From: Opitutales bacterium
Lineage (GTDB): Bacteria > Verrucomicrobiota > Verrucomicrobiia > Opitutales > Oceanipulchritudinaceae
Assembly: GCA_020831525.1 (NCBI GenBank)
Contig: JAFIGH010000047.1
Coordinates: 1 to 37,370, forward strand
Direction of reading: 5' to 3'
DNA: 37,370 bases
The translations under genes were made by a program, and so were the position numbers. Positions 13,643 through 37,139 of the stretch are shown in pieces. Position 1 is the first letter of the stretch. Each line of letters opens with the position of its first letter. The notes under the pieces were generated by a model. The model saw only the letters and a list, made by a program, of their open reading frames with translations. It searched no databases and was not told the DNA's origin.

Positions 13643-13677
13643 CCCCGGTCCCGACCGCCAGGATGGCCGTCGGCTAC
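13643..13677 (+). repeat. Long inverted repeat, left arm (partner at 14332-14366)
   Basis: The arm reads from CCCCGGTCCCGACCGCC to CGGCTAC. Its reverse complement occurs at 14332-14366 with a single mismatch over 35 bases. The two arms enclose the REP-like cluster. A third, more diverged copy of the same sequence is at 32826-32852. Confidence 0.85.
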
Positions 13678-13694
13678 AGCGCGGCAGCCCCGAC

Positions 13695-13744
13695 GTAGGC
13701 TGAAGCTTCAGCGAGGCACGGATGCGGTTGGCAGGAACGGACGG
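13695..13744 (+). repeat. REP-like palindromic unit, direct copy 1
   Basis: The unit starts GTAGGCTGAAGCTTCAGC, which contains the perfect 14-base palindrome GCTGAAGCTTCAGC, and ends GGAACGGACGG. Near-identical units lie at 13757-13806 and 14151-14200. Confidence 0.85.
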
Positions 13745-13756
13745 AGGCGCCCCGGC

Positions 13757-13806
13757 GTAGGCTGAAGCTTCAGCGAGGCACGGATGCGGTTGGAAGGAAC
13801 GGACGG
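13757..13806 (+). repeat. REP-like palindromic unit, direct copy 2
   Basis: This is the same 50-base unit as at 13695, one base different in the GGTTGGAAGGAAC part, spaced by 62 bases from copy 1. Confidence 0.85.
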
Positions 13807-13819
13807 TCGGCGGCCCGGC

Positions 13820-13864
13820 GTAGGGTTTTCGCGAGGTACGAATGCGGTTGGAAGGAACGGACGG
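13820..13864 (+). repeat. REP-like unit, degenerate copy 3
   Basis: This copy keeps the GCGAGG and ATGCGGTTGGAAGGAACGG parts but has lost the palindrome (GTAGGGTTTTCGCGAGG), so it shows the right half is conserved separately from the palindrome. Confidence 0.7.
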
Positions 13865-13875
13865 ACCCGGCGCGG

Positions 13876-13901
13876 CGCTCGCTAAAGCTTCACGCTACAG
13901 C
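13876..13901 (-). repeat. REP-like unit in opposite orientation
   Basis: The plus strand reads CGCTCGCTAAAGCTTCACGC, the reverse complement of a variant GTAGCGTGAAGCTTTAGCGAG. Together with the direct copies it gives the head-to-tail/inverted layout typical of BIMEs. Confidence 0.7.
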
Positions 13902-13932
13902 GGTGCGCGGCGGCACAGGCGTCAACGGCGAT

Positions 13933-13970
13933 CGGATAAGCCGGATACTCGCAAAAATCCGGTCTATCCG
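13933..13970 (+). repeat. Short copy of element with CGGATAA inverted ends
   Basis: The ends CGGATAAGCCGG and CCGGTCTATCCG pair at 10 of 12 positions. The left end and the following ACTCG match the full-length copies at 33051 and 33586. It looks like an internally deleted member of the family. Confidence 0.5.
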
Positions 13971-14007
13971 GATTCGACTCCGCATCATCCGAAAAACGAG
14001 CGCGAAG

Positions 14008-14099
14008 CGCCATGGACTGCGGCGGGCACCGCCGCCTTTGCGGCTGGGCGGCGTCCGTAAGCGGCGAAGGCGTTGAAGTGATCACCGCAGTCCATGGCG
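14008..14099. repeat. 15-bp perfect inverted repeat (stem-loop, 62-base loop)
   Basis: CGCCATGGACTGCGG at 14008-14022 is the exact reverse complement of CCGCAGTCCATGGCG at 14085-14099. A further small hairpin GCGGGC/GCCCGC follows at 14098-14111. Confidence 0.75.
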
Positions 14100-14150
14100 G
14101 GCTTCGCCCGCACGATGCATGGGCTCAACCAAGCGGCATTGGGCCCCGGC

Positions 14151-14200
14151 GTAGGCTGAAGCTTCAGCGAGGCACGGATGCGGTTGGTAGGAACGGACGG
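14151..14200 (+). repeat. REP-like palindromic unit, direct copy 4
   Basis: The same 50-base unit as at 13695 and 13757, with the palindrome GCTGAAGCTTCAGC intact, about 350 bases downstream of the cluster. Confidence 0.85.
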
Positions 14201-14331
14201 TTGCGGCGGGAGAGGAAGACGAAGAGGAAGGTCTACGCGCGCGACCGGTCCAGCGGACATCACCTTGCGGTGGCGCAAGGGGCACAGCGGGCACACGCGG
14301 GCATCACACGCCGTGGATCCAACCGAACGCC

Positions 14332-14366
14332 GTAGCCGACTGCCATCCTGGCGGTCGGGACCGGGG
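14332..14366 (-). repeat. Long inverted repeat, right arm (partner at 13643-13677)
   Basis: It begins GTAGCCGACTGCCATCCTGG. It pairs with the left arm at 34 of 35 positions. Confidence 0.85.
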
Positions 14367-14621
14367 TGCGCGAAGGCCCGCAACCTCAAGATCCCCCAGC
14401 CCCTACGCGCGCAGTCGGTCAAAGAGGCTCACCGCGAAATCCTTGACGCCCTGCTCGAAATCGTAAATCTCGGGGCATCATGCTGTTACCGACACTCCAA
14501 ACATCCTTTGTCTGCGTAAACCCCGAGCCGCATGTCGAGCGCCGATGCCGGTAAATGCGAAACTGGGTATTCCCCATATCCCGGTTCTGCCAAAAGTTAT
14601 CTGATGCGAACACGAATCATC

Positions 14622-15161
14622 ATGGCTGCATTTCTATCGTCCCTCGGACGCCTCTTCGGTGGCGACGCCAACCCCTTTTATGACCTAGTCGAGATTTACA
14701 CGAGTATGCGTCAACAGGTTCTCGAACTCGATGACGAGAAGATCGGTGAGCTGAAGGAAAAGCCCGTTTGGGCAGTGTTGATGGAGACAGGATACCCGGA
14801 CGCAGCAGCCACACTCGTTGCTGTGGCGGACGGTGCGGCAAGCCTCTATTTCTCTAATGGCGGCGGGATTATCGGAGCTGGCGAGCATGCGAACGTTCGT
14901 CCGGCATCGCTTCGACTGATCAAGATGGCAGAGGGATTCCTCGGCGAGATGAGGAGGGTCGAGACTTTCCCTGTTCCGAAGCCAGGGCACACGAACTTCT
15001 ACGTGGTCACGCCGAAGGGTGTATTCACCTACACCGCGAAGGAGGACGACCTGGGCAAAGAGAGAGACAAGCTTTCGAAGCTCTTTCACCAAGGCCACGA
15101 GCTCATTGGGCAAATGCGCATCGCCGAACAGAACCGACAGGCGGAACACGATGCGCCATGA
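14622..15161 (+). CDS. Conserved hypothetical protein
   Basis: The 179-aa product has no named domain that I recognise, although the core (VWAVLMETGYPDAAATLVAV, then SLYFSNGGGIIGAGEH and NFYVVTPKGVF) recalls a widespread family of uncharacterised bacterial proteins of similar length. No TM helix or signal peptide is evident; the start MAAFLSSLGRLFGGD is amphipathic and may touch membranes. ATG 14622 was chosen because the conserved part begins shortly after it; ATG 14604 and an upstream ATG at 14532 are in frame but add no recognisable sequence. Codon use is less GC-rich than in the flanking operons, which suggests later acquisition. It lies between repeat clusters and has no operon partner. 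Confidence 0.7.
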   Translation: MAAFLSSLGRLFGGDANPFYDLVEIYTSMRQQVLELDDEKIGELKEKPVWAVLMETGYPDAAATLVAVADGAASLYFSNGGGIIGAGEHANVRPASLRLIKMAEGFLGEMRRVETFPVPKPGHTNFYVVTPKGVFTYTAKEDDLGKERDKLSKLFHQGHELIGQMRIAEQNRQAEHDAP

Positions 15162-15272
15162 AAACCCGCTACCAGCCGCTCTGTTTCGATGATTTTCTGT
15201 AGCTACAAACCCTAACCCCGTGATCGATGCCCGCCCACGCTGGCAGGGGTACATGCGCTCATCGTTCTGAGA

Positions 15273-15833
15273 ATGAAAAACATAATTATACTCTGCCTTG
15301 TGGCACTATTGGTCGGGTGTTCAGATGGTTATATCCCCAATTACATCAAAGAGAAGATTGGAGAGGTTATGCCCGGGGATCATGCTGAGCACTATATCGA
15401 TTGGATAAATGAGCAATACGGACATTTCTTGCCTGAACCCATCGAGCGACTTTCAGGGTCATTCGCTTTGAGAATAATTGGTGTGGGAGGATTTGTGGGA
15501 CATTCGTACATGACAGAGGTGATCGAAAACGATGATGGAACCGGGACAATTATCTACCGTGATTTCCGAAATCAGCGAATATCAGTTTACAGAAAGGAAG
15601 TCGTCGTTGAGCCAGTTTTAAGATCTCTTCTGGATTTCAGGACCGACATGAGTACGATCATGGAGCTTTCTATGTTCCAGAATGACTCAGGTGATTATAT
15701 TCACGACGGATATGCATGGGTTATAGAGGCATTCGACGGAAAGAATCGCCGCTTTATTTTCAGGGCATCAAACACCGCACTCGAAGAATCTTTTTCCACT
15801 CTGTTGGAGGAATTGAACCGCTTTGAAAGATGA
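15273..15833 (+). CDS. Low-GC lipoprotein of unknown function
   Basis: The 186-aa product has a type II signal peptide: MKNIIILCLVALLVGC, with lipobox LVGC and the lipidated cysteine at residue 16. The mature part is soluble and acidic with no recognised domain. It should be anchored to the inner or outer membrane; Ser-Asp follow the cysteine, and Asp at +2 would favour inner-membrane retention only if the E. coli Lol rule holds here. The base composition is strikingly richer in A+T than any large gene of the window (many ATA, AAT and AGA codons), a strong sign of horizontal transfer. It stands alone, 111 bases after the previous gene. Confidence 0.8.
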   Translation: MKNIIILCLVALLVGCSDGYIPNYIKEKIGEVMPGDHAEHYIDWINEQYGHFLPEPIERLSGSFALRIIGVGGFVGHSYMTEVIENDDGTGTIIYRDFRNQRISVYRKEVVVEPVLRSLLDFRTDMSTIMELSMFQNDSGDYIHDGYAWVIEAFDGKNRRFIFRASNTALEESFSTLLEELNRFER

Positions 15834-16406
15834 CTCAGAATCGGGTAGCGGGCAGGATTTACCTCCCCACCCCCCACACCATGCGCCGTCCCCTGCGACT
15901 ATGGCCACACACAGCCGGAGGCCGGTTGCCGCCGCGCAGATGATTCCGTAGAATCGTTCCACCGAGACGAACGCCTTGCGTCGTCGCCGTATATGAAGAT
16001 CAGCCGTTGTTCAATGGCACCCGGATAAACCGCCATGGCAAATTGAGTCTCCGTGCAAACAGCGGGCGGGGACGCCCACTCCACTTTCGAATCACCGGTT
16101 TATCCGCGGCATTCCACCCGGAGGTCGATTCCGCATGAACAGGACCCGCGTGTTTCCAGACATCGGTCGTCCAGGGCGAGGTGGACCAGACTATTGCGCG
16201 ACTTTGCCGTTGCCATGGTTGGGGATCTTTGCTTTTCATGGGTTCATGATACACGGGACTTTGCTCAATCCTTCGAAGCCTTGGCAAAGAATGGAAACCT
16301 GATTGCATCACGCCCATACCGGGCACACACAAGACGCCTGAGATTCGCAATCTGCTTGACCAGCGTGCCGCGCGTGTCGATTCTGGCGAAGAATGAGATC
16401 CTCAGT
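15834..16406. other. Intergenic region with one repeat element
   Basis: This 573-base gap has no credible gene. It contains the inverted-end element at 16022-16106. The remainder (16107-16406) has intermediate GC and short open frames on both strands but no recognisable product; it may be remnant sequence. Confidence 0.6.
16022..16106 (-). repeat. ~85-bp element with perfect 11-bp inverted ends
   Basis: CGGATAAACCG (16022-16032) and CGGTTTATCCG (16096-16106) are exact reverse complements. Read on the minus strand the element aligns along its length with 33051-33134 and 33586-33669 (shared blocks include CTCGAAAG-GGAG and CGCCCG-TGTTTG). A diverged direct copy lies at 16733-16815. Confidence 0.8.
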
Positions 16407-16739
16407 ATGAATCCTCGAAAGCTAAAGGCGCAGAATCGATGGCGTGCCACCCGTAAGAAGGGAAAGACGAAGTTCATCCTTCTGACGGGCGTTCTTTCAT
16501 GGGGTTTTCCCATGTTCATTCTGATGACGTTCTTCATCCATCGCCGACAGAATGATGTGCTCTCACCGGCAGGGATTTTGATTTCAGCGATCATTTGGCT
16601 ACTTGCCGGAGCACTGTTCGGCTGGGTGATGTGGACCGTCTCGGAGAAGAGTTACCAAAAGCATTTGGCTGCGCTTAGGTCGAATGAAACACCCGAATCG
16701 GATAGCGGAGGGGATTCAATCCCAAAGTCGTCCGGATAA
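16407..16739 (+). CDS. Small two-TM membrane protein
   Basis: The 110-aa product has a basic N-terminus (MNPRKLKAQNRWRATRKKGK) followed by two hydrophobic segments (FILLTGVLSWGFPMFILMTF, about 22-41, and ILISAIIWLLAGALFGWVMW, about 52-71) and a polar tail. By the positive-inside rule the N-terminus is cytoplasmic. Similar small proteins with the pattern 'Wr.tR.kGk..Fil..G.l.WG.pmf' occur in diverse bacteria, without known function. The frame is open further upstream to 16053 but that part lacks similarity and crosses a repeat. The gene lies between two diverged copies of the same inverted-end repeat, and its stop codon lies inside the right-hand copy. Confidence 0.7.
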   Translation: MNPRKLKAQNRWRATRKKGKTKFILLTGVLSWGFPMFILMTFFIHRRQNDVLSPAGILISAIIWLLAGALFGWVMWTVSEKSYQKHLAALRSNETPESDSGGDSIPKSSG

Positions 16740-16815
16740 TCAACCTTTGGCAAAGAGAGTTTCCGGGCAAACAGCGGGTGGAACGCCACTCCGCTTTCGA
16801 GTCAACGGCTTACCG
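16733..16815 (-). repeat. Diverged copy of the inverted-end element, overlapping a stop codon
   Basis: It starts CGGATAA and ends CTTACCG and aligns with 16022-16106 in the same orientation (shared GGCAAA, GAGT-TCCG-GCAAACAGCGGG, ACTCC-CTTTCGA). The inverted ends are decayed. The TAA of the small membrane protein (16737-16739) is part of the left end. Confidence 0.7.
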
Positions 16816-16961
16816 TGGCAACGTGCCTGAATCTAGGCGAGCGCGGAGACGGCCGGACCCGAAGAGCGGACCAACGGAATATTGCGGTCTTTGGCTTTGG
16901 TCTTTGACCGCTGCCGGATTCTCGGCCATATTATGTCTTTTCCACAAGAACAGCCATATCC

Positions 16962-25810: not shown

Positions 25811-25882
25811 CGCTCGATAAAACTACACGCCACAGCAGAGACCACCGCACCCCTCAACGTAGGCTGAAGCTTCAGCGAGGCA
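25811..25882. repeat. Inverted pair of REP-like units between moxR and the DUF58 gene
   Basis: 25811-25838 is a diverged inverse unit (CGCTCGATAAAACTACACGC), matching 13876-13901. 25859-25882 is a direct unit with the intact palindrome GCTGAAGCTTCAGC, matching copies at 13695, 13757 and 14151. Head-to-head units of this kind are called BIMEs. It lies inside an operon and may change the relative level of the two transcripts. Confidence 0.75.
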
Positions 25883-32532: not shown

Positions 32533-32922
32533 CGAATACCTCGTCGCGCGGGCAGAGGGCAATGGCGCTCGGAAAAGGCCGGGGCCACGGCGGGCACCGC
32601 CATAGTAGGTGTGAGACCTCGACTCGGCTGAGTTCGTCGCAGGCTGGTCCGCACCACGCCGCCGCCGGGGCCGTCCCCGCCAACCGCACGAACACGATCA
32701 CCGCCGACCGCGCGCGCCGGGCTGCCGACCAAGCTTCGGCAGGCTCAGCCGAGTCAAGGTCAGGCAGCTACGGTCTCCCAACCGCACACACGCGCCGCGA
32801 TGCTCACCGAACGAGCCCGACCGCTGTAGTCGGCTGCCATTCTGGCGGTCGGTCGAGGATGCGCGGCCGCGGATTCGCCGCGCTTCCGGCGCCCCTACAG
32901 GGCGCAACCGCGGTGTGACCAC

Positions 32923-32955
32923 GGAAACCCATGGTTGGCACCATGGGCTGTCACC
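32923..32955 (+). repeat. 33-bp inverted repeat, left arm in copy 1 (partner 33239-33271)
   Basis: GGAAACCCATGGTTGGCA and on to GGGCTGTCACC. Its reverse complement is at 33239-33271 with one mismatch in 33. Each arm is itself a small hairpin (CCCATGG/CCATGGG). Confidence 0.9.
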
Positions 32956-33050
32956 GTACGCGCCGTTGGCGCGGGGTCGTCCCGGCGGTGCCCGGCGCGC
33001 CATGCGGCAACCGCCTTACGGTTGCACCACGGGTCGGCGGGAATGGCGCG

Positions 33051-33134
33051 CGGATAAGCCGGGAACTCGAAAGCGGAGCGGAAGTCCCGCCCGATGTTTG
33101 CGCGGAAACCTCCCGTGCAATGCAGACGTTACCG
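33051..33134 (+). repeat. Inverted-end element, copy in duplication 1
   Basis: It starts CGGATAAGCCGGGAACTCG and ends CGTTACCG and aligns with the reverse complement of 16022-16106 at 84-85 bases. The same element is at 33586-33669 in copy 2. Confidence 0.75.
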
Positions 33135-33238
33135 GGTGCCATTGCCGGCCGGCGGTTGAGCCCCGAAGGGGCGCCCTGTTCGCCACAACCGCCTGAACCC
33201 AGACGACCCAAACTCGAGTGCACCCCGAAGGGGCGCCG

Positions 33239-33271
33239 GGTGACAGCCCATGGTGACAACCATGGGTTTCC
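33239..33271 (-). repeat. 33-bp inverted repeat, right arm in copy 1
   Basis: Reads GGTGACAGCCCATGGTGACA, continuing to CATGGGTTTCC; pairs with 32923-32955 at 32 of 33 positions. Confidence 0.9.
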
Positions 33272-33405
33272 CGGTTCCGGATTTCCGCGCCCTGAAGGGG
33301 CGCCGGGATCCGCAAACCGCCGGATCCCCCCGTGGCACAATGTGTACGACCGATCCGACCACTTCGTCTCCCGACCCCGGAATTCCGCACCGGGTGCACG
33401 GCCAC

Positions 33406-33859
33406 GGATTCGCCGCGCTTCCGGCGCCCCTACAGGGCGCAACCGCGGTGTGACCACGGAAACCCATGGTTGGCACCATGGGCTGTCACCGTACGCGCCG
33501 TTGGCGCGGGGTCGTCCCGGCGGTGCCCGGCGCGCCATGCGGCAACCGCCTTACGGTTGCACCACGGGTCGGCGGGAATGGCGCGCGGATAAGCCGGGAA
33601 CTCGAAAGCGGAGCGGAAGTCCCGCCCGATGTTTGCGCGGAAACCTCCCGTGCAATGCAGACGTTACCGGGTGCCATTGCCGGCCGGCGGTTGAGCCCCG
33701 AAGGGGCGCCCTGTTCGCCACAACCGCCTGAACCCAGACGACCCAAACTCGAGTGCACCCCGAAGGGGCGCCGGGTGACAGCCCATGGTGACAACCATGG
33801 GTTTCCCGGTTCCGGATTTCCGCGCCCTGAAGGGGCGCCGGGGATCCGCAAACCGCCGG
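33406..33859 (+). repeat. Large duplication, copy 2 (454 bp)
   Basis: Copy of 32871-33323 shifted by 535 bases. The inverted repeat arms are at 33458-33490 and 33774-33806, and the inverted-end element at 33586-33669. Between the copies, 33324-33405 is single-copy sequence. Confidence 0.9.
33586..33669 (+). repeat. Inverted-end element, copy in duplication 2
   Basis: Identical to 33051-33134. Confidence 0.75.
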
Positions 33860-37078: not shown

Positions 37079-37139
37079 AATGGCGCTCGGACAATCCGGG
37101 TGCCCGGGGAAATCCGGTCGTTTCCAATCGAGCGCCATT
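37079..37139. repeat. 11-bp perfect inverted repeat after the VWA gene
   Basis: AATGGCGCTCG (37079-37089) is the reverse complement of CGAGCGCCATT (37129-37139). The left arm also occurs at 32561-32573 after the DUF4175 gene (AATGGCGCTCGGA). Confidence 0.7.

Follow-up and report, generated by a model that had tools for sequence, protein, structure and literature searches.

The window analysed here, the whole 37,370-nt stretch of DNA, is contig C103 of a 5.30-Mb genome of an Opitutales bacterium that is assembled in 184 contigs (G000). It holds copies of a short repeat with inverted ends, referred to below as a MITE, whose unit, as defined by aligning the copies, is C-AATGGCGCYCGGATAAGC...GCTTATCCGRGCGCCATT-G; this measures 101 bp from AATGG to CCATT and 103 bp with the outer C and G, and longer and shorter forms also exist. 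The copies in the window and the features that accompany them are as follows.

13924–14140, plus strand: long 217-bp member with the shared ends, right end GCTCAACCAAGCGGCATT; flanks GGCACAGGCGT / GGCCCCGGCGT (9/11 bp)
16012–16114, plus strand: MITE copy, subfamily A, found by alignment with the other copies; 2-nt deletion in the right end
16407–16739, plus strand: small 110-aa ORF with two TM segments, between two copies; GC 0.51
16723–16826, plus strand: degraded MITE copy, subfamily A, with 11 end mismatches; its left end gives the small ORF its TAA stop
32561–32578, plus strand: lone element end, a match to the end pattern, partner uncertain
32864–33842, no strand: direct duplication with a 535-bp period holding both 33-kb copies (32864–33307 vs 33399–33842; 99.8% identity over at least 444 bp)
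33041–33144, minus strand: MITE copy, subfamily A; flanking repeat 9/11 bp, CGGGTCGGCGG / CCGGCCGGCGG (33030–33040 / 33145–33155)
33576–33679, minus strand: second copy of the 33-kb insertion, within the 535-bp tandem duplication
37079–37139, plus strand: short 61-bp member, end mismatches 2 and 5–6

A sequence-only reading had described a five-copy family of ~85-bp elements here, and its four long copies (16022, 16733, 33051 and 33586) are present at those positions. The CGGATAA motif and 11-bp inverted ends that it took for the termini are internal, since the inverted ends run further out as CAATGGCGC..., so that its copy at 16022–16106 becomes 16012–16114; the true unit is ~103 bp and far more numerous than five copies. 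Its ‘short derivative’ at 13933–13970 is the left end of the 217-bp member, to which a 214-bp element elsewhere in the genome (C34:44765–44978) is comparable. The repeats themselves are real, but the copies at 33,051 and 33,586 are not separate insertions: both lie in minus orientation inside one direct duplication, and they therefore represent a single event. The duplication also contains many GGGGCGCC-type inverted repeats.

As had been noted, two copies in the same orientation flank the small two-TM ORF, whose stop codon falls inside the end of the right copy. No family match above cut-off was found for this ORF. It is one of three low-GC ORFs at 14532–16739 (0.56, 0.43 and 0.51 vs 0.65), which were possibly acquired; another, at 15273–15833, looks like a lipoprotein gene. 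No target duplication could be recognised at the copies at 16012 and 16723, and both copies are old. Other repeats lie nearby: a 39-nt inverted repeat (13643–13681 / 14328–14366; 95% complementary) frames ~650 bp containing the 217-bp MITE and has a relative near 32822–32852, this being a family separate from the MITE, while GCCCCGGCGTAGGCTGAAGCTTCAGCGAGGCACGGATGCGGTTGG... repeats occur four times within the 13687–14205 region and once, in shorter form, at 25852–25882.

The window samples a much larger population. Across G000 there are 35 matches to a 104-bp consensus, and the 18-bp end is matched 110 times with up to three mismatches, vs 11 for a reversed-pattern control, or 78 times vs 0 with up to two; the end matches group into ~69 loci. 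Further members occur in close relatives. The terminal inverted repeat is 18–20 bp long and is common to forms that differ in length and interior. Among the loci retrieved, 13 of 28 end pairs measure exactly 101 bp, with other classes at 61, 76, 98–103, 134 and 146–147 bp, and longer pairs of 214–256 bp appear when the length limit is widened. At least three subfamilies (A, B and C) share the ends and a central palindrome and differ in the sequence between. The 101-bp length is also seen in two genomes of the same genus (G009 and G010), and a member of the same GTDB family (G011) carries 147-bp MITEs. The elements are thus short, non-coding, bounded by inverted ends, accompanied by a target duplication and present in multiple dispersed copies, as MITEs are.

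Target duplications were assessed for every two-ended element by comparing, left against right, the 11 bp beyond one extra base per side, with mismatched pairs as the null; the 11-bp length and the outer C/G were established by scanning offsets (offset 1/1). In G009 and G010, 12 of 14 elements reached at least 80% identity (mean 0.92; mismatched pairs, mean 0.38, with 1.6% reaching 80%). The corresponding figures were nine of 20 in G000 (mean 0.63; mismatched pairs, mean 0.33, 0% reaching 80%) and five of six in G011 (mismatched pairs 0%). The flanking repeats, examples of which are CGTTTTGTCCC, CGGATTAACGC, GAGTCAAACCT and GCCCCTGATCA, are 11-bp target-site duplications lying just outside the outer C...G pair, and the earlier proposal to look for such duplications has a positive outcome. 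The preferred target has A or T at its centre between G-rich and C-rich sides: the central base is A/T in all 15 of the clearest duplications, while position 3 tends to be G and position 9 to be C; this G/C symmetry, unlike the central A/T, arises in part from counting both strands. A BLAST search of G000 loci against the loci retrieved from relatives found no usable orthologous empty site. An open-frame test for avoidance of genes (18 of 22 vs 0.87) is uninformative in a genome of such high GC.

These duplications bear directly on the suggestion that the repeats are recombination sites, integron attC-like or otherwise, which carry single-gene cassettes. Two same-orientation copies do enclose a small low-GC ORF and the ends are foldable; however, site-specific cassette integration leaves no 11-bp target duplications, for which reason the cassette reading is unsupported, and the many size classes and insertion at unrelated 11-mers also stand against it, as does the lack of an attC core in the sequence-only reading itself. 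Close pairs are few: six neighbouring pairs lie within 3 kb in G000 (2.6 expected), and this window accounts for four of these, the duplication included. The flanks of 22 genome copies average 0.638 GC vs 0.653 for the window, so the proposed link to low-GC genes does not hold as a general association. Cassette-bearing sites are therefore exceedingly improbable. For the bracketed ORF the simplest reading is an incidental one, in which two old insertions came to lie on either side of a gene by chance.

The palindromic form of the elements also recalls REP/BIME-type repeats moved by RAYTs (REP-associated tyrosine transposases), all the more as G000 contains 49 matches to Y1_Tnp (PF01797) and one copy in G009 adjoins a RAYT-like gene. 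Nevertheless, 11-bp target duplications are not a product of RAYTs, and an element lies within 1.5 kb of only two of the 49 Y1_Tnp genes, vs 1.9 expected. With target duplications present and proximity to Y1_Tnp absent, this identity was dropped as very unlikely. The number of these RAYT-like genes is itself unusually high, and many lie in open frames of ~340–360 aa.

The ends of the MITE point instead to the IS4 family. Its subgroup IS4 is described as having ends of the form -AATR--------WTW----, lengths of 1400–1650 bp and target repeats of 10–13 bp (De Palmenaer et al. 2008; PMC2266710). The MITE end, C-AATG-GCGCTCGG-ATA-AGC, fits this consensus (PMC2266710) at every position, and the 11-bp duplication falls within the subgroup's range; the end expected on a cognate full IS4 element is CAATGGCGCTCGGATAAGC. 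A complete IS4-family element of 1595 bp is present in a genome of the same family as the window genome (G007, contig C385, loci L324/L341). Its ends, AATGGCACTCGGTTAAGC/G, agree with the MITE end consensus AATGGCRCTCGGWTAAGS at every position, and it encodes a 491-aa transposase which scores 210 bits against NF033592 (transpos_IS4_1; cut-off 115). The repeat that flanks it is imperfect (AGGCTAGGGTG / AGGCTAGGGCG). Outside the terminal repeat it bears no obvious likeness to the MITE interiors, and it is accordingly regarded as a relative rather than a proven parent. More widely, a pattern search found AATGGCRCTAAGTTAAG ends in 41 of 288 genomes of the phylum, with many short derivatives that have similar duplications. 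Two full elements with these ends, of 1589 bp (L275, with the 11-bp duplication ACATCAGGATT) and 1556 bp (L276), encode transposases with NF033592 scores of 180 and 197 bits (cut-off 115); the G007 and L276 transposases share 32% identity across most of their length.

An alternative parent, an IS21-type element, was considered on the strength of an istA-like start in G011 that follows the end AATGGCGCTTGGTCAAACCTTCTCATCGGGATCG, which also heads the 147-bp MITEs of that genome. The istA-like fragment (L206, contig C87 of G011) is truncated and stands alone, however, reaching only 26 bits for NF033546 (cut-off 160), and full elements bearing these ends belong to IS4. Target duplications of IS21 are shorter, at 4–8 bp. 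An IS21 parent was dropped on account of the truncated fragment and is highly improbable. Elsewhere in G011, the long ORF adjoining the end on contig C63 (L219) resembles glutamine synthetase and was rejected as a transposase, and an insertion sequence, AATGGCGCTAAGTTAAGG, turns up at contig ends alone.

We conclude, with a probability of about nine in ten, that the repeats are IS4-subgroup MITEs of the IS4 family, proposed to be moved in trans by a transposase of that type; the fit to the end consensus and the G007 element whose ends match the MITE end consensus are what lead to this assignment. The likeness to MITEs remarked on in the sequence-only reading is thus borne out by the target duplications, by the link to a transposase family and by a full-length relative whose ends are the same. 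The search for a source element, which it had also suggested, is answered in part: an IS4 transposase with matching ends exists in G007, whereas the G000 assembly contains no match to the IS4 transposase domain PF01609. One candidate autonomous element in G000, between the ends at C125:2969 and 4879, holds ORFs without a recognisable transposase. At C87:110693–110763 an element end runs into unrelated ACCGCCTATGAAAAGAGAGATTC... at the end of the contig, which may mark the border of an autonomous element missing from the assembly.

In the proposed mechanism, a DDE transposase would bind the ends and excise the element, the 3' ends would be joined to target phosphates 11 bp apart, and repair of the gaps would yield the 11-bp duplication. 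The autonomous partner in G000 would have been either lost or left unassembled, because multi-copy insertion sequences in this genome fall into contig gaps.

Such gaps are associated with a second insertion sequence. Several G000 contigs break off within an element, precisely at GGGCGGGACGCCC|AATACTGTCAGTTTAG, and the end AATACTGTCAGTTTAG occurs 13 times in G000, always near a contig end. Nine of the 13 lie in MITE cores, of which eight are of the A/B type and one is of the C type; such cores make up ~1.7e-4 of the genome. The other four seem to form two pairs, each from opposite sides of a single insertion, one in a CRISPR spacer and one in a gene. The 13 ends thus amount to about seven copies, of which MITE cores hold about five. 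The CRISPR site comprises C123:97633 and C96:39 (L067, L064), where the insertion sequence lies in a spacer of an apparent CRISPR array beside a repeat-like GTCGCCCCCTTCACGGGGGCGCGGATTGAAAC. In the sister species G009, both ends found of the second insertion sequence (2/2) are at MITE-like cores, and its partly assembled transposase matches PF01609 and Nterm_IS4, with 190 bits for NF033592. The ends, C-AATA-CTGTCAGT-TTA, also fit subgroup IS4. Only the tips of this element are assembled in G000, where locus L069 looks to carry the C-terminus of the transposase, and the missing PF01609 is thus no proof that the genome has no IS4 enzyme. Its targets, GGCGGGACGCC and GGCGAGACGCC, are unlike those of the MITE, and to judge from these sequences the MITE is probably mobilised by something else. 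For this second IS4-subgroup element the palindrome at the MITE's centre (GGGCGGGACGCCC in A/B) is a hot target.

It may be asked whether the palindrome is kept for some purpose of its own. In an alignment of 32 sequences the end and central stems are 82.9% paired, vs 32–39% when slid, and changes on both sides of the stems number 25 cells vs 10.4 in shuffles. Since these changes mostly separate the subfamilies, they reflect few independent events; the stems are compatible with a maintained palindrome and indicate no particular function. One possibility is that the 101-bp fold of an IS4-type MITE has also been kept for a role in the host, as a terminator, a structured RNA or a binding site for a regulator, which would be consistent with a length that is constant across species and with compensated changes in the central stem (for example, CG 7, UA 7 and AU 5 at the outer pair). 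Against this, Rfam matches in the window number 0 at the gathering score, folding of the whole alignment yields almost nothing, the changes largely fall between the three subfamilies, and transposition alone already makes terminal repeats palindromic; a host role is accordingly unlikely. A similarly speculative view, which we doubt, joins the MITE and the second insertion sequence in a lasting two-tier arrangement. The palindrome, with its constant length and compensated stem changes, would be maintained as a harmless dock diverting the insertion sequence from genes, and the insertion sequence inside would be framed by a foreign pair of IS4-type ends, on which a related transposase could act to move the whole together.

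Of the named matches to the MITE end, most are Opitutales MAGs labelled CSSed, a prefix borne by samples in a study with Cock Soda Lake sediment among its sites (PMC6146748), and we infer that it stands for this sediment. End matches in MAG contigs of 3.0–3.7 kb assigned to ‘Wenzhouxiangella’ and ‘Salinarimonadaceae’ look like binning strays. Among the papers searched, none joined MITE and IS4 family with Verrucomicrobia, or MITE and insertion sequence with Opitutaceae. The analysis identifies an abundant, unannotated class of repeats in an uncultured Opitutales lineage and ties it to a transposase family; G000 and genomes close to it contain dozens of scattered MITEs, and across the phylum there are related ends and short derivatives. 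The nested targeting, with the MITE of one IS4-type element as the chief insertion site of another in two sister species, offers a clean natural case for studying how a transposase chooses palindromic targets, and the nested repeats explain why several G000 contigs break within MITEs.

Correia/NEMIS and RUP are short elements with inverted ends, of ~100 bp to a few hundred bp, which are thought to be mobilised in trans. The parent transposase families of these elements and of MITEAba12-type MITEs differ from that of the IS4-type MITEs described here. In being short and non-autonomous, with inverted ends and a presumed mobilisation in trans, the window elements are like bacterial MITEs of the MITEAba12 type (PMC6382973). 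With subgroup IS4 they share the end pattern -AATR--------WTW- and target repeats of 10–13 bp (PMC2266710), and their full relatives have in addition its type of transposase and, as YLHRWEIEVRFRDIK in the G007 protein shows, its YREK spacing; unlike full IS4 elements, those in the window are 61–217 bp long and non-coding, and with the full elements found they have only the terminal repeat in common. The second insertion sequence resembles ISRm22, an IS4-family element of which all nine Sinorhizobium meliloti copies sit in REPs (Tobes and Pareja 2006; PMC1525189), in that the AATACTGTCAGTTTAG element inserts at the palindrome axis of a short repeated element. IS4-family insertion at palindrome axes was thus already known; the added twist is the nested target, which, unlike the REP target of ISRm22, is an IS4-type MITE with target duplications of its own.
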